Source: Gammaproteobacteria bacterium TMED78
GTDB lineage: Bacteria > Pseudomonadota > Gammaproteobacteria > Steroidobacterales > Rariloculaceae
Assembly: GCA_002171615.1 (NCBI GenBank)
Contig: NHEF01000010.1
Location: 219,017-283,016 of the forward strand
Direction: 5' to 3'
Length of the DNA: 64,000 bases
Shown: piece after piece, positions 931 through 10,118 of the stretch
Numbering within the stretch: the first letter of the stretch is position 1
Layout: each line of letters starts with the position of its first letter
Notes under the pieces: model-generated
Seen by the model: the letters and a program-made list of their open reading frames with translations, nothing else
Database searches by the model: none
What the model was told of the DNA's origin: nothing
Translations under genes and position numbers: made by a program

Positions 931-2292
931 ATGGCTATAGCTATTGCTCTTATACTTTTAGTTGTCTGGTCTTTGTTTTTTCATTTTGCGAGTCCTTGGT
1001 ATTTAACTCCAATAGCTTCTAATTGGGGAATGATTGATACAACAATAGATATAACATTTGTTGTAACAGGGATAGTTTTTGTAGCTGTAAACCTTTTCAT
1101 GGCCTATTGTATAATTAAGTTTAGGCACAAAAAAGGGAAGCAACAAAAAGCAGAATATGAACCAGAAAATACTAAACTTGAAGTTTGGCTGACCGTTATA
1201 ACTACCATAGGTATTGCTGCAATGCTAGCCCCGGGGCTTATAGTATGGAATGATTTTGTCAATCCCCCTCAAGATGCAGTTGAGGTAGAAGTAGTTGGTC
1301 AACAATGGCACTGGAGTTTCAGATTACCAGGGGAAGATGGTCAATTAGGAAATGTAGATGTTAGATATATGTCAAAGTCTAATCCTTTTGGAATAGACTC
1401 AGAAGATCCAGCTGGTCTTGACGATATCTTGATTGGAGACTCATCAACACTTCATCTACCTATCAATCAACCTACAAAAGTCTTACTTAGATCTAAAGAC
1501 GTATTACATGATTTTGCTGTGCCACAATTTAGAATTAAAATGGATCTTGTTCCAGGAATGGTTACATACGCTTGGTTTACTCCAACAAAAACTGGTACTT
1601 ATGATATTTTATGTGAAGAATTATGTGGAATCTCTCATCATGCTATGAGAGGAAAAGTTATAGTAGATGAGCCAAGTGATTATCAAACATGGCTTCAAGA
1701 ACAAGTTACTTTTGCTGACCTTCAAAACAGGCCTAAAGGAGACCCTGAACTAGGTAAAACTAACTTCGCAATCTGTGCTGCATGCCATGGTCAAAATGGT
1801 GAAGGGATGCAGGTTCTAAATGCTCCTAAATTGACTGGTCAGGAACCACTTTACTTAAAGCGTCAACTACAATATTGGAAAAAAGGCATAAGAGGAGCCT
1901 CTGAGGGAGATATTTACGGAGCTACTATGACTCCATTAATGGTCACTCTCCCTGATCAAGCTTCTATTGATAATGTAGTTGCATATATTGAGAGCCTTCC
2001 TTCTGAACCAGCGGAAAAAACTATCTCAGGTGATATATCTACAGGAAGATATATTTATTCTACCTGCTCGGCCTGTCATGGAGCAGACGGAAAGGGAATT
2101 TGGTCAATGAATGCTCCAGCTTTAGCAGATATGACAGATTGGTATTTAGCCAGACAACTAAAGAACTATAAGGATGGTATTAGGGGGAAACATCCTGGAG
2201 ATCCTTATGGCTATCAAATGAATATGATGGTAGATATTTTACCAGACGAGAAAGCTATAAACGATGTTATTGCTTATATTAATACACTTTAA
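931..2292 (+). CDS. coxB: Cytochrome c oxidase subunit II fused to two C-terminal cytochrome c domains
   Basis: CuA motif CEELCGISHHAM, QQWHWSFRLP, two CXXCH motifs (CAACH, CSACH). Confidence 0.95.
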   Translation: MAIAIALILLVVWSLFFHFASPWYLTPIASNWGMIDTTIDITFVVTGIVFVAVNLFMAYCIIKFRHKKGKQQKAEYEPENTKLEVWLTVITTIGIAAMLAPGLIVWNDFVNPPQDAVEVEVVGQQWHWSFRLPGEDGQLGNVDVRYMSKSNPFGIDSEDPAGLDDILIGDSSTLHLPINQPTKVLLRSKDVLHDFAVPQFRIKMDLVPGMVTYAWFTPTKTGTYDILCEELCGISHHAMRGKVIVDEPSDYQTWLQEQVTFADLQNRPKGDPELGKTNFAICAACHGQNGEGMQVLNAPKLTGQEPLYLKRQLQYWKKGIRGASEGDIYGATMTPLMVTLPDQASIDNVVAYIESLPSEPAEKTISGDISTGRYIYSTCSACHGADGKGIWSMNAPALADMTDWYLARQLKNYKDGIRGKHPGDPYGYQMNMMVDILPDEKAINDVIAYINTL

Positions 2293-2321
2293 ATTTTTTA
2301 GAGATTATAGGGAGAGTTCTA

Positions 2322-4088
2322 ATGGCTTACGTATCAATAGCTGACAAAGATCATGAGCAGCACATGCATGATCCCCAATCATTTATAACAAAATATATTT
2401 GGAGCCAAGATCATAAAGTTATAGCGATACAGTATGCACTAGTAGCTATTTTTGTTGGTCTGATTGCTATGGGGCTTTCTGTAATGATGAGGCTTCAATT
2501 AGGCTTTCCAGAATGGGCAACATTTATTACCCCTGAAGAATACTATCAATACGTTACTATGCATGGAATGATTATGGTTATATACCTCTTGACTGCTCTC
2601 TTCCTAGGTGGTTTTGGTAATTACCTTATTCCTCTCCAGCTAGGTGCTAGAGATATGGTTTTTCCATATATGAATATGTTAAGTTTCTGGGTATATCTTC
2701 TATCAGTCATCGTTCTCCTTATAAGCTTTTTTATACCTGATGGACCAACAGGAGCTGGATGGACTCTCTATCCTCCACAAGCAATTTCTGAAGGTACTCC
2801 GGGAGATGGTGGAGGTATTGTATTCATGCTTGCATCACTCTCATTATTTATAGTTGCATTTACAATGGGAGGGCTTAACTATGTTACTACTGTTCTTCAG
2901 GCAAGAACTCGTGGTATGACATTAATGAGGATGCCTCTTTCTATTTGGGGTATATTCGTTGCAACTATTTTAGGCTTACTAGCATTCCCAGCATTGCTTG
3001 TTGCTGCAATCATGATGTTATTAGATAGGGTGATTGGCACTAGCTTCTTTATGCCTGCCATGCTGACTCTAGGAGAAACCTCAGAATTTTCAGGAGGTAG
3101 TCCTATTTTATTCCAACATTTATTTTGGTTCTTTGGGCACCCAGAAGTTTATATAGTAGCCTTACCTGCATTTGGGATGGTTTCAGATGTTCTCGCAACA
3201 CATGCAAGAAAAAATATATTCGGCTATAGGATGATGGTATGGGCCATAGTGGGAATTGGTGCACTAAGTTTTGTCGTATGGGCGCATCATATGTATGTTA
3301 GTGGTATGAATCCATATTTTGGCTTCTTCTTTGCAACTACTACATTAATCATAGCTGTCCCGACGGCTCTGAAAGTCTATAACTGGGTTCTGACACTTTG
3401 GAAAGGAGACCTTAGACTTACAGTCCCAATGCTTTTCGCTATTGGATTTATTTTTACTTTTACTCATGGAGGTCTAACAGGTTTATTCTTAGGTAACGTT
3501 ACTGTTGATTTGCCATTATCGGACACCTACTTCGTAGTTGGACACTTCCATATGGTAATGGGTGTCTCACCAGTTTTAGTTCTTTTTGCTGCAATATATC
3601 ATTGGTACCCAAAAATAACTGGAAGGATGTTTAATAATACACTCGGAACAATACATTTCTGGTTTACGCTCTTAGGTACTTACGCAATTTATCTTCCAAT
3701 GCATTATATTGGCTTCTTAGGAGTACCCAGAAGATATTACGCTAATGGCACAATGGATATTGTTGATGAGTCAGTACAACTGCAAAATGCAGGTATGTCA
3801 GTAGCAGCGATAATTGTAGCTTTAACTCAGCTTATCTTTTTATTCAATATGATTTGGAGCCTGAAGTACGGAAAAAAAGCTCCTGGTAACCCTTGGGGAG
3901 GAACAACTTTAGAATGGCAAACGCCTCAAACTCCTGCAGCTCATGGTAACTGGGGAGAAAATTTACCAGAAGTTCATAGATGGGCTTATGATTTTAGCGT
4001 TCCAGGTGCAGAAAAAGATTTTACCCCGCAAAATGAACCAGCATCTGACGGAGTTCCAGTAGGTAGAGATCATGGGGTAAATCACTAG
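2322..4088 (+). CDS. coxA: Cytochrome c oxidase subunit I (aa3-type heme-copper oxidase)
   Basis: WFFGHPEVYIVALPAFGM, WAHHMY, VVGHFHMVMG signatures; 588 aa. Confidence 0.97.
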   Translation: MAYVSIADKDHEQHMHDPQSFITKYIWSQDHKVIAIQYALVAIFVGLIAMGLSVMMRLQLGFPEWATFITPEEYYQYVTMHGMIMVIYLLTALFLGGFGNYLIPLQLGARDMVFPYMNMLSFWVYLLSVIVLLISFFIPDGPTGAGWTLYPPQAISEGTPGDGGGIVFMLASLSLFIVAFTMGGLNYVTTVLQARTRGMTLMRMPLSIWGIFVATILGLLAFPALLVAAIMMLLDRVIGTSFFMPAMLTLGETSEFSGGSPILFQHLFWFFGHPEVYIVALPAFGMVSDVLATHARKNIFGYRMMVWAIVGIGALSFVVWAHHMYVSGMNPYFGFFFATTTLIIAVPTALKVYNWVLTLWKGDLRLTVPMLFAIGFIFTFTHGGLTGLFLGNVTVDLPLSDTYFVVGHFHMVMGVSPVLVLFAAIYHWYPKITGRMFNNTLGTIHFWFTLLGTYAIYLPMHYIGFLGVPRRYYANGTMDIVDESVQLQNAGMSVAAIIVALTQLIFLFNMIWSLKYGKKAPGNPWGGTTLEWQTPQTPAAHGNWGENLPEVHRWAYDFSVPGAEKDFTPQNEPASDGVPVGRDHGVNH

Positions 4089-4762
4089 TGAACATAACTT
4101 TACTATTTGTAGCTTTAGCGGCTGCAATAATACTTTGGTTTTTTGTCATAAGAAGGTTAAGAGCTAAGCCTTGGACTACCGAGGGAATATTAGAGCGAAA
4201 TAATATAACCTCATTACCAGCTGAAAAGGTTGGTCTCTGGGCTTTCCTAGCAGTTGTAACAAGTCTATTTTCTTTATTTTTCATTATGTATGCAGAAAGA
4301 TCTGGGTATCCTGACTGGAGGCCCTTACCTGATCCTTCAATTTTATGGGTAAATACTTTTTTTCTTATTATGGCTAGTATCTGTTATCAACTCTCCAGAA
4401 ACCTTTTAAATAGTAAGAATTATAAATATATGAAAATAAGTTTATATTTAGGTGGAATTTTTACTATCTTTTTTATTCTTGGACAGATCTCAGCATGGCA
4501 AATGGCATATTCATCAGGATTCTTTTTTGCTACTAATCCAGCTAATACATTTTTTTATCTTATCACTGGCTTGCATGGCCTACATATTTTGGGTGGGCTA
4601 TTTGTATGGATAAAAACAGCTTTAAAGGTATGGAATGGTTTAGAATATAATAATTTAAATCAGATCGCTGGTATCAGATTAAGTATACAGCTCTGCTCAT
4701 TCTATTGGCATTATCTTTTACTTTTATGGTTAGTGCTTTTTTATCTCTTATCTACAACTTAA
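4088..4762 (+). CDS. Heme-copper oxidase subunit III family protein (first copy)
   Basis: Multi-TM; GLHGLHILGGLFVW and FYWHYLLLLWLVLFYLL motifs; GTG start overlaps the coxA stop by 1 nt. Confidence 0.85.
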   Translation: MNITLLFVALAAAIILWFFVIRRLRAKPWTTEGILERNNITSLPAEKVGLWAFLAVVTSLFSLFFIMYAERSGYPDWRPLPDPSILWVNTFFLIMASICYQLSRNLLNSKNYKYMKISLYLGGIFTIFFILGQISAWQMAYSSGFFFATNPANTFFYLITGLHGLHILGGLFVWIKTALKVWNGLEYNNLNQIAGIRLSIQLCSFYWHYLLLLWLVLFYLLSTT

Positions 4763-4775
4763 AGGAACTCATATA

Positions 4776-5462
4776 ATGTCTCAAGACTCTACAATAAGTT
4801 CAGAATTGTCCCATGCCGATGGTATGAAAGGGTTTGTTAAGGATTGGTCTTCAGATAAACAAACTTTTCACGTGCCTTGGGGTAAGGCAATGATGTGGAT
4901 CTTCCTCTTAAGTGATACATTTATATTTACTTGTTTTTTAACTGGATATTTAAACGTTAGAGCCTCAACAAGAGTTGAATGGCCCAATCCTAGTGAAGTA
5001 TTTGCCTTGTCTTTTGGAGGAGATCCTATTCCTCTAATACTTATTGCTATAATGACTTTTATTTTAATTACTAGCAGTGGCACTATGGCTATGGCAGTAA
5101 ATATGGGGTATAGGAAAGATCGTGCTAAAACTGCATCCTTGATGCTTATCACAGCTGCTTTTGGAGCCATGTTTGTTGGTATGCAAGCATTCGAATGGAC
5201 AAAATTGATCATTGACGAAGGTGTTAGGCCCTGGAGCAATCCTTTTGGGGCACCTCAATTTGGAGCAATATTCTTCATGATTACGGGATTTCATGGCATG
5301 CATGTATCTATAGGGGTTATTTATCTTGTAGTTGTAGCTATGAAAGTACTTCGAGGTGATTATGAAAAACGTGGTTATGAAATCGTAGAAATAACTGGGC
5401 TATATTGGCACTTTGTTGATCTAGTTTGGGTATTTATCTTTGCTTTTTTCTATCTTTGGTGA
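4776..5462 (+). CDS. Heme-copper oxidase subunit III family protein (second copy)
   Basis: GFHGMHVSIGVIYLV and GLYWHFVDLVWVFIFAFFYLW are typical of COX3. Confidence 0.93.
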   Translation: MSQDSTISSELSHADGMKGFVKDWSSDKQTFHVPWGKAMMWIFLLSDTFIFTCFLTGYLNVRASTRVEWPNPSEVFALSFGGDPIPLILIAIMTFILITSSGTMAMAVNMGYRKDRAKTASLMLITAAFGAMFVGMQAFEWTKLIIDEGVRPWSNPFGAPQFGAIFFMITGFHGMHVSIGVIYLVVVAMKVLRGDYEKRGYEIVEITGLYWHFVDLVWVFIFAFFYLW

Positions 5463-5473
5463 GGAATTTTTAA

Positions 5474-5818
5474 ATGGCAGGAAAAGAAGGACAACAACAT
5501 CCCCTCTCAGTATATTTTTGGGTCTGGGGTCTTTTATTTGTAATAAGCGCTCTATCATATTGGGTTGACTATGCTGGCTTTCAAGGATACTTGAGATGGA
5601 CCTTAATACTTATTTTTATGTTTCTTAAAGCAGGCCTTATTATTGCTATTTTCATGCATATGATATGGGAAAGATTAGCCCTTGCATTGGCAATACTTGG
5701 GCCGCCAATTGTTTTACTAGTTTTGATTGCCCTAATGGCTATAGAGGGTGATTATACAGAAATTACAAGACTAATTTATTTCGGTGAGGACACTACCGAA
5801 TTTTTAGGACATCATTAA
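5474..5818 (+). CDS. Cytochrome c oxidase subunit IV family (CyoD-like) membrane protein
   Basis: Three TM helices, FLKAGLIIAIFMHMIWER; position after COX3. Confidence 0.8.
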   Translation: MAGKEGQQHPLSVYFWVWGLLFVISALSYWVDYAGFQGYLRWTLILIFMFLKAGLIIAIFMHMIWERLALALAILGPPIVLLVLIALMAIEGDYTEITRLIYFGEDTTEFLGHH

Positions 5819-6106: not shown

Positions 6107-6748
6107 TTATAGCGGCTTAAGCTGAACCGTACCAAATCTGATGGTTCCACCATTACTTTGTAATGCAAATGGCCCATCCATATGTGTACTATCTTCTAAC
6201 TCAGCTGTTATATTTCCATTTAAAATGACTGTGATCTTTGATCCTTGGGCTATAATGTCATAGGTATTCCAATTACCCTCTGTCTCAGTCGTTATCAATG
6301 GAGCAACATATCTCATAATACTGCCAGTCCTATTTTCTGGATTAGCATTCTGATCATATATATTAATCTCGTAGCAGGTATCTGGACTTGCTCTTGTATT
6401 GTCTTCACACCTAATGAAAACTCCACTATTTGAGTCAATACCATTCCAGAAATCAACTCTTAAATGAAAATCGGTATACTCGCCCTTCGAGACTAGATAG
6501 CTCCCACTAGCATTATTAGACTCAACGTAACTATCAATAATAGCCCAGCCACCATCTCCTATTTCATTAAAACTATTCAAATCATAGCCATCAAATAGAA
6601 TTACCCAGCCTGGATCACTTAATAGAGAGGCCTGTGTTGTATTTGATGGCATTGTTTGATTATCTAAATCATTCAATTGTGTGCCATTATTTTGTTCCTG
6701 ACAGCCTAAAATAGCTAAAAATAGAAAGAAAAAATAGAGCTTGGACAT
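6107..6748 (-). CDS. Lipoprotein with DUF1080 / 3-keto-disaccharide hydrolase-like domain
   Basis: Lipobox FLAILGC after MSKLYFFFLF (internal start preferred over track start at 6814); WVILFDGYDLNSFNEIGDGGWAI...YTDFHLRVDFW...NSGVFIRC pattern of DUF1080. Confidence 0.82.
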   Translation of the reverse strand: MSKLYFFFLFLAILGCQEQNNGTQLNDLDNQTMPSNTTQASLLSDPGWVILFDGYDLNSFNEIGDGGWAIIDSYVESNNASGSYLVSKGEYTDFHLRVDFWNGIDSNSGVFIRCEDNTRASPDTCYEINIYDQNANPENRTGSIMRYVAPLITTETEGNWNTYDIIAQGSKITVILNGNITAELEDSTHMDGPFALQSNGGTIRFGTVQLKPL

Positions 6749-6827
6749 TGCTAAAGCCTCCTGTGGTATATAGAATTTGTTATAATATAATAATGCTAAT
6801 AAAAAAAATAACAACTAAGAATTTTTA

Positions 6828-8777
6828 ATGAAGAGCAAAAAGAAAAAAAATACTTTAGGTAGGAGAGAATTCCTAGCAGGAGCTGCAGTAACTAGTATTA
6901 CAGCCCCATTCATAGAAAATGATGCTAACTCACAGCAACCAAACACCCTAGAGAAACCATCAGCGCCTTTACCTAATTCTACCCAATCAGCTATGGAGCA
7001 AGAAAATCCTGATAACTATACAAAGGAACAAAGGGCAGGTTATTTTATAGATAATCCTGGATCAGATTTTATGACAGACGTTGTTAAAGCTCTAAATATA
7101 GACTATATGGCAATTAATTGTGGCTCTAGCTTTAGAGGTTTTCATGAGTCTATTTTGAACCATGGTGGAAATAAGCCAGAAATTCTTAACTGCGTTCATG
7201 AGGAACAGGCAGTGGCAATGGCTCATGGTTATGCAAAAGTTTCTAAGAAGCCTATGGCTGTTATGTTCCATGGTACTGTAGGAATACAACATGCTGCTAT
7301 GGCAGTCTATAATGCATATGCAGATAGGGTTCCAGTAATTGTTTTTGCCGCTGATCATGATCATCTAGATGATAGAACTTCGGAAGTTAAGTGGGCTCAT
7401 GCAGCTCAAGATCCATTAAGCCCGATTAGAGATTATATGAAATGGGATGATTACCCAAAAACACTTCAACATTTTGCAGAATCTTCAATAAGAGGTTATC
7501 GACTCGCCACAACTCCGCCAATGGCACCAATTGGTATCTCTTTTGGAACAACTATACAAGAACAAAATATAGTGGAAAAAAATCTTAATATACCAAAAGT
7601 TAGAAAGCCATCAATTCCAATAGGTGATTTAAATGCTATTGATGAAGCAGGTAAAATGCTAGCTGAAGCTGAAAACCCTGTAATTGTTGTTGATAGATAT
7701 GCAAATAGTCAAGGAAGTGTTAATAACCTAATTAAACTGGCAGAGCTATTACAAGCTCCTGTAGTAGAACAAATGGGTAGAATGAATTTTCCAAATACAC
7801 ATTACTTAAGGCAAGGTGCTGGAGTAGCCGCTCAAGCAGATGTCATCTTATCATTAGAAGTTAAAGATACATGGAATATTGTTAACAGGACAAGAGACAA
7901 GCCTGATCTTCCTTACTCAAAAAGAACAAAGCCAGATGTAAAAATAATAACTTTAGGTATGACAGAAGTAATATTCAGATCTAACTATCAGGATATGAAT
8001 AGATTTTTTTCTGCTGATCTATCAATCATAGGGGATGGAGATTCTAGCCTGCCTTATCTGATTGAATCAGTTAGCAAATATCTTACTAATTCTAAAAAAA
8101 ATCAAATTAAGCAAAAAATGATTACTTGGACTGAGAGATTTAAGTCACAGAAAATAAGAGATATTGAAGCCGCAAGATATGCATGGGAGGCGAGCCCAAT
8201 AAGTACAGGTAGACTCTGTCTTGAGCTTTGGGATCTTGTTAAAAACAAGGACTGGGCTTTATTAGCACCAGAAAAATTTCATAGTAGATGGCCTAGTCGA
8301 TTATGGAAAATTGATAAGCACTATCAACTGAATGGTGACTCAGGTGGTTTTGGTCAAGGATACACTAGTCCTGCTTCTGTGGGAGCGGCTTTAGCTCATA
8401 AAGAATTTGGAAGATTACCAATAAGTATTGTTGGAGATGGAGATAGTATGTATACACCTGGCGTCCATTGGACTTCTGCTCACCACCAAATACCACTTCT
8501 TTCAATAATTCATAATAATAGAGGCTATCATCAAGAGCTTATGCATGTTCAAAGAATGGCTAATTGGAGACAAAGAGGGGAACCAGGATCAATAGATCCT
8601 GGAAATGTAATTAATAAACCTAATATTGATTTTGCTAAAGTTGGTGAGGGGCTAGGCATTTGGACAACAGGCCCTATCACTTCGCCAAATCAACTCAGGG
8701 CCGCACTAAGAAAAGCTATTGATGTCGTTGAGAATGGTGAGCCCGCCTTAGTTGATGTAATTACACAGCCAAGATAG
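6828..8777 (+). CDS. Tat-signal-bearing thiamine pyrophosphate-dependent enzyme (acetolactate synthase/benzoylformate decarboxylase superfamily)
   Basis: N-terminal GRREFLAGAAV twin-arginine motif; catalytic-Glu region HEEQAVAMAHGYAK; TPP motif GDGD...HNN with 24 residues between GDG and NN. Confidence 0.88.
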   Translation: MKSKKKKNTLGRREFLAGAAVTSITAPFIENDANSQQPNTLEKPSAPLPNSTQSAMEQENPDNYTKEQRAGYFIDNPGSDFMTDVVKALNIDYMAINCGSSFRGFHESILNHGGNKPEILNCVHEEQAVAMAHGYAKVSKKPMAVMFHGTVGIQHAAMAVYNAYADRVPVIVFAADHDHLDDRTSEVKWAHAAQDPLSPIRDYMKWDDYPKTLQHFAESSIRGYRLATTPPMAPIGISFGTTIQEQNIVEKNLNIPKVRKPSIPIGDLNAIDEAGKMLAEAENPVIVVDRYANSQGSVNNLIKLAELLQAPVVEQMGRMNFPNTHYLRQGAGVAAQADVILSLEVKDTWNIVNRTRDKPDLPYSKRTKPDVKIITLGMTEVIFRSNYQDMNRFFSADLSIIGDGDSSLPYLIESVSKYLTNSKKNQIKQKMITWTERFKSQKIRDIEAARYAWEASPISTGRLCLELWDLVKNKDWALLAPEKFHSRWPSRLWKIDKHYQLNGDSGGFGQGYTSPASVGAALAHKEFGRLPISIVGDGDSMYTPGVHWTSAHHQIPLLSIIHNNRGYHQELMHVQRMANWRQRGEPGSIDPGNVINKPNIDFAKVGEGLGIWTTGPITSPNQLRAALRKAIDVVENGEPALVDVITQPR

Positions 8778-8785
8778 CCTTAAAT

Positions 8786-9160
8786 ATGATTTCATATAAA
8801 CTAAAAAATATAATTTTTATTCTACTAATTTTAATAAACCCATCTCTTCTACTAGCACAGGATGATATCAAAGGAATAGGGAAGAAACTATATTTTGATC
8901 ATGCTTGTTGGCAATGTCATGGACTTGAAGGGCAAGGAAGCTCAGCTTCACCTGCTACACCAAGAATAGCCCCTACTCTATATCCTTATGAGGTATTTTC
9001 GATCTTAACTAGAAAGCCGCCCCCTGGAATGCCTGCCTACTCAAGCAAAATTCTGAGCAATAATGACCTATTAGCTATATATGAGTATGTAAAATCAATT
9101 CCAGCCCCTCCAGAAATTGAAGATATAGAAATATTAAATGATCTTAGCAAGGATTATTAG
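8786..9160 (+). CDS. Small secreted c-type cytochrome
   Basis: Signal peptide; CWQCH heme-binding motif; GMPAY candidate Met ligand. Confidence 0.88.
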   Translation: MISYKLKNIIFILLILINPSLLLAQDDIKGIGKKLYFDHACWQCHGLEGQGSSASPATPRIAPTLYPYEVFSILTRKPPPGMPAYSSKILSNNDLLAIYEYVKSIPAPPEIEDIEILNDLSKDY

Positions 9161-9164
9161 GCCT

Positions 9165-10118
9165 TTAGGCAGAAGGTAAATTATCAATAACCTCCTCCAT
9201 TCTTCTAAGGGTAGATTGATCTGGTAATACGCCTCTACCTGCACCAAGATTATCTAACATATTTACTGGCTTGCTAGTGCTAGGGGTAATAACCGTAACT
9301 GCTGGATTAGCAGCTATATACTTTAAAAAGAATTGAGCCCAAGTATTAGCTTGAAATTCTTTCCCCCAGTCTGGAACTGATTGCCCTCTAACTCTAGACC
9401 AAAGCCTTGAGCGACCAAATGGTAAATAAACCATAACGGCTACTCCATAATCAGCAGCGGCTGGGATAAGATAGTCAGCGGCATCTCTATCGTCTATTGC
9501 ATAATCAATACCAATAAAATCAATCTCTTGATTTTTCATAATATCAACTGCTTCTTGGTATCTCCTAGATGCTGTTGTAGTAACTCCTATATACTTTACC
9601 CGTCCCTCTGATTTTATATCCTTAAGTATTCCTAGTTGGGTAGGAACATCTGCCAAATTATGAACTTGAATTAAATCAATAGGATTCTTACCTATTGCAT
9701 TAAATGAGCGTTCAATCTGTGCCCTTGCGTCCTGGGGATTAACTGGAGAGGAGCTACCTCTTGGCTGAACATTGACTTTTGTGGCCCAAAAAACCTTATC
9801 AACCGCATTCAATTCATTAACAACTTGGCCTGCTACCTCTTCAGAAGCTCCTGCTGCATAACTTGGAGCAGTATCAAAAACTGTACCGCCATTATCTATA
9901 AGAGCACTCATTACTGATCTCACGGTATCAAATTCTTCTGCACGCGCCATGGAAGAAAAATTAGCTGAACTACCAAGACCTATAATAGGAATAAACTCAC
10001 CAGTAGAAGGTATTGCTCTTCTAATTAAAGGTTCTGATTGAGCTAGGATTATATTAGGCAAAAGATATGAAATCCCCGAAAAGGCTCCATACTTCAATAT
10101 TTCTCGTCTACTAGTCAC
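9165..10118 (-). CDS. Aldo/keto reductase with Tat signal
   Basis: N-terminal SRREILKYGAFSG; AKR motifs DTAPSYAAGASEEVAG, IDLIQVHN. Confidence 0.9.
   Translation of the reverse strand: MTSRREILKYGAFSGISYLLPNIILAQSEPLIRRAIPSTGEFIPIIGLGSSANFSSMARAEEFDTVRSVMSALIDNGGTVFDTAPSYAAGASEEVAGQVVNELNAVDKVFWATKVNVQPRGSSSPVNPQDARAQIERSFNAIGKNPIDLIQVHNLADVPTQLGILKDIKSEGRVKYIGVTTTASRRYQEAVDIMKNQEIDFIGIDYAIDDRDAADYLIPAAADYGVAVMVYLPFGRSRLWSRVRGQSVPDWGKEFQANTWAQFFLKYIAANPAVTVITPSTSKPVNMLDNLGAGRGVLPDQSTLRRMEEVIDNLPSA

Follow-up and report, generated by a model that had tools for sequence, protein, structure and literature searches.

What would a thiamine-diphosphate (ThDP)-dependent enzyme do outside the cytoplasm, and why would it be encoded beside a cytochrome of its own? 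Decarboxylation with ThDP is textbook cytoplasmic metabolism. Two adjacent genes in the window (the whole stretch of DNA analysed, 64,000 nucleotides) raise this question. The sequence-only reading described them, at 6828–9160, as a Tat-signal thiamine pyrophosphate (TPP) enzyme with a dedicated c-type cytochrome and knew of no characterised example of such a pairing. Both ORFs are present at these positions, and our search of the open-licence literature likewise yielded no exported TPP enzyme with a cytochrome, although absence there is not proof.

The enzyme, its partner and the nearest known families

The first ORF (6828–8777, + strand, ATG start) encodes 649 aa with matches to the Pfam TPP_enzyme N (1e-20), M (2.5e-9) and C (8.3e-21) domains. 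The second (8786–9160, + strand, ATG start) begins 8 nt past the stop of the first and encodes 124 aa with a Cytochrom_C match (1.6e-8). The features of the pair are:

6828..8777, + strand: Tat-signal TPP-dependent enzyme, benzoylformate-decarboxylase-like, 649 aa (ORF, Pfam TPP_enzyme N/M/C, profile and fold matches)
6828..6935, + strand: twin-arginine signal peptide region, comprising n-region, GRREFL (6858–6875), h-region and AxA-like c-region (homologue conservation)
7200..7202, + strand: E125, presumed ThDP-activating glutamate (aligned with E47 of benzoylformate decarboxylase)
7269..7271, + strand: H148 (aligned with active-site H70 of benzoylformate decarboxylase)
8433..8519, + strand: GDG-X24-NN ThDP/Mg-binding motif (sequence; conserved in the exported and sister clades)
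8517..8546, + strand: NRGYHQELMH segment, residues 564–573 (sequence and clade alignment)
8786..9160, + strand: class I cytochrome c with one haem, predicted to be Sec-exported and partnering the TPP enzyme (Pfam Cytochrom_C, conserved neighbour relation)
8906..8920, + strand: CWQCH haem-attachment site (C41, C44 and H45 in 100% of 40 aligned partners)
9029..9040, + strand: MPAY with presumed axial ligand M82 (M82 in 97%, P83 in 95% and Y85 in 92% of partners)
9125..9136, + strand: conserved C-terminal tail, candidate docking element (I114 in 85%, P115 in 80% and L117 in 92% of partners)

The sequence motifs first reported for this locus were all recovered: in the enzyme, the catalytic-Glu region HEEQAVAMAHGYAK containing E125, the GDG-X24-NN motif (GDG at residues 536–538, NN at 563–564, 24 residues between) and GRREFLAG; in the second gene, CWQCH, GMPAY and the 8-nt gap. 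The three Pfam domains, the activating glutamate and GDG-X24-NN place the enzyme in the ThDP-dependent decarboxylase superfamily. The superfamily is a known one; what is new is the location and the partner.

Profile and fold searches both return benzoylformate decarboxylases as the nearest solved structures, the fold search having been run on an AlphaFold model of low confidence (mean pLDDT 61). The enzyme shares with benzoylformate decarboxylase (MdlC), its best solved relative, the catalytic Glu, the His at the position of H70 and GDG-X24-NN; it differs in overall sequence (approximately 20% identity) and in the stretch NRGYHQELMH, whose polar character points to a small, polar substrate and away from an aromatic one. 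Benzoylformate decarboxylase is cytosolic and works without a cytochrome.

Membership in a named family was rejected throughout. The score against the benzoylformate decarboxylase model NF005485 is 145 bits (cut-off 493) and that against NF006203, the PRK08327 thiamine pyrophosphate-requiring protein, is 222 bits (cut-off 456); three relatives reach 228, 224 and 202 bits against the latter, also below cut-off. Every other NCBIfam TPP model listed gives a score below its cut-off, and identity with glyoxylate carboligase, acetolactate synthase, pyruvate oxidase or benzoylformate decarboxylase was discarded because the scores fall far short.

Conservation of the Tat signal and of the cytochrome

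The first homologue set was drawn from 97 genomes of the window's relatives, the GTDB contig collection (homologues in Acidobacteriota and Alphaproteobacteria) and plasmids (Caballeronia and Novosphingobium). A hold-out set of 40 new homologues, gathered after the rule was formed, came from a 396-genome sample of the order; since most of the first set belongs to the same order, it tests new sequences, not new phyla.

The twin-arginine signal noted in the sequence-only reading is kept in 82 of 83 homologues with a readable N-terminus (34–59% identity). At the F position of RR-x-F-[L/I/F/V], two residues beyond the second Arg, 81 of the 82 motif-bearing proteins have F and one has L, and an AxA-like site follows the motif in all 82. 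The motif occurs in 46 of the 47 first-set enzymes (the exception, in locus L062, reads NSREFL) and in 36/36 hold-out enzymes with a complete N-terminus, compared with 1.8% of shuffled N-termini and 6 of 576 internal windows by chance. This conservation rules out a start-site artefact. An [ST]RRxFLK-like motif, an h-region and an AxA site, all retained in homologues, constitute a Tat signal at the sequence level, from which we infer export of the enzyme. TatC is encoded in the same genome (contig positions 216267–216899; the window starts at 219017).

It is very improbable that the enzyme is cytoplasmic or membrane-bound, its twin-arginine stretch no working Tat signal and the cytochrome a coincidental operon partner. 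The h-region in the window does look weakly hydrophobic. However, the motif is RRxF in 81 and RRxL in one more of the 83 proteins and AxA-like sites follow it, the nearest sister clade is missing the N-terminal extension of approximately 75 aa found in the exported enzymes, and the haem of a c-type cytochrome is, as is generally known, loaded only outside the cytoplasm.

In 80 of 83 testable loci (homologues at 34–59% identity) the gene immediately downstream encodes a CXXCH protein, so that the claim of a conserved neighbour held, as did the expected co-occurrence of Tat motif (82/83) and cytochrome (80/83). In the first set it stands at –4 to +193 nt in 44/45 testable loci (exception L031), a count that leaves out L036, which is masked, and L076, which ends at a contig edge; an apparent TPP–cytochrome fusion in L036 was ruled out, as its reading frame runs through some 60 codons of masked N. 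In the hold-out set 36 of the 38 loci with downstream sequence have the gene (exceptions L122 and L133). Three exported loci are thus left without a neighbouring cytochrome, and their enzymes may sometimes use another acceptor or none. Fisher values for these counts treat loci as independent and are overstated; the tree described below is the better argument.

Divergence of the enzyme correlates with that of its cytochrome (n=40, r=0.79; the highest value among 5000 permutations is 0.29), as it should for genes that are passed on together. Adjacency in 80/83 loci and this correlation are the marks of a periplasmic enzyme–cytochrome c pair, and, judged from gene order and co-divergence, the two genes are a conserved two-gene module. 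In several genomes the pair is present two or three times, with a separate cytochrome for each enzyme; the window's genome (1.57 Mb, 99% complete) has a single copy. Carriers are for the most part uncultured bacteria and include members of the window's order, Alphaproteobacteria and Acidobacteriota; the module is also present on a Caballeronia plasmid. Its distribution is patchy, as neither a phylum sample (399 genomes, all those listed being of the same class; E<=1e-90) nor a class sample (369 genomes; E<=1e-60) gave a match beyond the window's own genome. In Caballeronia, the one annotated carrier encountered, the two genes are labelled ‘thiamine pyrophosphate-binding protein’ and ‘c-type cytochrome’, nothing more.

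CXXCH, a distal Met and the Cytochrom_C match assign the partner to class I cytochromes c. Most partners are mono-haem, those of one subclade are di-haem, and CcmF is encoded in the window's genome. The C-terminal tail reads IEIL in the window, with E at the P position, and I-P-x-L in most partners; a tail of the I/V/L-P-x-L type occurs in 32 of 36 hold-out partners. Because alignments to solved cytochromes stop short of this tail, we regard it as a candidate docking element.

The cytosolic sister clade and the predicted reaction

In a quick tree on core columns, with the N-terminal columns left out and no bootstrap, a branch with SH-aLRT 97 separates the 47 first-set enzymes from the rest. 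The nearest sister group comprises 11 enzymes, most of them close to 590 aa long, which come from plasmids and from a single related genome (28–38% identity to the exported clade), a small and plasmid-biased sample. None of them has a Tat tag and none (0/11) has a neighbouring CXXCH gene. The Tat signal and the cytochrome pairing go together on the tree and, on the simplest view, arose once. E125, H148, D537, G538, N563 and N564 are common to both clades, whereas residues 568–570 are typically HxE in the exported clade and (F/Y)ND in the sister clade.

The sister genes keep other company. A same-strand NAD aldehyde dehydrogenase (Pfam Aldedh) adjoins 6 of the 11, and a 3-hydroxyisobutyrate-dehydrogenase-like NAD(P) reductase adjoins 2 of the 11; within the stretch examined, a same-strand aldehyde dehydrogenase is found in 0/47 exported loci (in L066 one lies 6 kb away, on the other strand). 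MdlC is paired with the aldehyde dehydrogenase MdlD, which the sister arrangement resembles. The gene context of the sister clade is the one that a 2-oxoacid decarboxylase would have if NAD enzymes dealt with its aldehyde product. Free NAD is absent from the periplasm, so an exported enzyme that oxidises its intermediate in that compartment would be expected to have a cytochrome in place of the dehydrogenase. UbiD genes together with those of a xanthine-dehydrogenase-like Mo enzyme are found near members of both clades, which therefore may serve similar pathways.

Alternatively, the enzyme might be a carboligase or C–C hydrolase acting on ketones or diketones, like glyoxylate carboligase or cyclohexane-1,2-dione hydrolase, with the cytochrome taking electrons from the product. 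In two sister loci the partner is an NAD(P) reductase from the family that includes tartronate semialdehyde reductase, and both model enzymes are among the fold matches of the low-confidence structure (pLDDT 61). Glyoxylate carboligase, however, has no catalytic Glu, which is conserved here, and its NCBIfam model scores 68 bits against a cut-off of 791, so that we hold this possibility to be quite improbable.

We rather favour a periplasmic two-gene oxidation module in which the partner cytochrome would oxidise the ThDP intermediate of a benzoylformate-decarboxylase-like 2-oxoacid enzyme, replacing the cytosolic dehydrogenase. The enzyme would fold and bind ThDP and Mg in the cytoplasm before export by Tat. 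In the periplasm, a small 2-oxo acid would be decarboxylated (or cleaved), leaving a carbanion/enamine on ThDP, from which two electrons would pass, one at a time, to the cytochrome. No aldehyde would be released to an NAD-dependent dehydrogenase, unlike the apparent route in the cytosolic sisters; the acyl-ThDP would be hydrolysed to the acid, and the cytochrome would deliver its electrons to the respiratory chain, here possibly to the caa3-type oxidase encoded upstream. We infer the substrate, the decarboxylation, the ThDP-to-haem transfer, the acid product and the delivery to the oxidase. Of the original proposal, the Tat-signal enzyme and its dedicated cytochrome stand; the oxidative decarboxylase or lyase function is a prediction, better supported now that aldehyde dehydrogenases are seen to take the place of the cytochrome in the sister clade.

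A more specific form of this proposal, a periplasmic 2-oxoacid:cytochrome c oxidoreductase passing electrons from the ThDP intermediate directly to c-haem without flavin, Fe–S or NAD, and acting as an exchangeable module across catabolic clusters, is put forward tentatively. The step is chemically reasonable, since artificial oxidants take electrons from ThDP intermediates. Against the proposal as a whole, the first acceptor in the characterised ThDP oxidases is, to our knowledge, FAD or an Fe–S cluster. In pyruvate oxidase (PoxB) and pyruvate:ferredoxin oxidoreductase, as proposed here, a ThDP-bound intermediate is oxidised and the electrons leave the enzyme; yet these enzymes, which rely on FAD or Fe–S, are found in the cytosol or on the inner side of the membrane, whereas the acceptor proposed here is a separate periplasmic cytochrome c, and the pyruvate oxidase NCBIfam model gives 59 bits against 742. 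The architecture has parallels in p-cresol methylhydroxylase (PchF–PchC), SoxCD and SorAB, in each of which a small class I cytochrome c is dedicated to a catalytic subunit in the periplasm, although that subunit depends on a flavin or on molybdenum and not on ThDP. Weak matches to the window's cytochrome include the PchC chain 1dii_C. Tat export with a pre-loaded organic cofactor has a precedent in the NADP-loaded glucose-fructose oxidoreductase of Zymomonas (reference list of PMC7317946), an enzyme that differs from the TPP enzyme in fold, cofactor and chemistry.

We know of no earlier case of ThDP-to-haem electron transfer, and the module would be the first. If the proposal is true, oxidation of 2-oxoacids has moved to the periplasm, bypassing NAD and CoA and coupled to respiration much as with PQQ and Mo dehydrogenases, and bacteria would have a so far uncharacterised means of oxidising organic acids on the outer side of the inner membrane. 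The contrast with the cytosolic, aldehyde-dehydrogenase-linked sister clade makes the module directly testable.

Gene neighbourhoods of the pair

The upstream gene (6107–6814, – strand; 3-keto-disaccharide hydrolase domain, DUF1080) is divergent from the TPP gene and the downstream aldo/keto reductase (AKR) gene (9165–10118, – strand) is convergent with the cytochrome; hence the pair stands alone as a two-gene unit. A larger conserved operon was not found: the DUF1080, AKR and glutamine cyclotransferase neighbours are not conserved, and the DUF1080-domain gene has no counterpart in related loci. The exceptions are a similar AKR in L043 and relatives of the TRAP permease in four loci. The window's AKR has a Tat-like signal, TSRREILKYG, and the protein in L043 (9251–10174, – strand), in the same place, also has one and is 34% identical; a periplasmic nicotinamide enzyme would need a tightly bound cofactor.

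The oxidase to which the sequence-only reading routed the electrons is genuinely encoded at 931–5818, as a caa3-like set of COX2 with two cytochrome c domains, COX1, COX3 and COX4. When 931–2292 was compared with related loci, the sole match was a 30% cytochrome-domain match near tatC in the same genome; to judge by these loci, the oxidase and the pair are not a conserved neighbourhood.

Neighbouring dehydrogenases bear on a further reading, in which the exported enzyme is a non-oxidative decarboxylase or lyase, the aldehyde is oxidised by another periplasmic dehydrogenase and the cytochrome is the general acceptor of that enzyme. Candidates lie near the pair in some loci: a PQQ alcohol dehydrogenase in L041 and L065, methylamine-dehydrogenase-like MauA/MauB in L066, and a SoxCD-like Mo enzyme with a cytochrome in L043. 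But they vary from locus to locus while the TPP–cytochrome pair is constant, and in the majority of loci the stretch examined is free of them; we therefore consider this reading unlikely.

In L066 (8773–11672), genes for methylamine-dehydrogenase-like light and heavy chains and MauD/MauE-like genes adjoin the pair. A cluster with a UbiD-type decarboxylase and a xanthine-dehydrogenase-like Mo subunit, mostly including an NMT1-type binding protein, lies upstream of the pair in L042, L044, L048, L050, L051, L053, L055, L062 and L064. Four genomes of one genus (L058–L061) share a long syntenic block around it.

A second, separate TPP clade (L093–L101; 22–26% identity) also has Tat-like starts, of the form SRRxF..AM.A.GFS.AAA. 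Examples from this clade are L094, near the SRRQFL motif, and L098, with a cytochrome at 3928–4251. A c-type cytochrome ORF is found nearby in 5 of these 9 loci, directly downstream in one.
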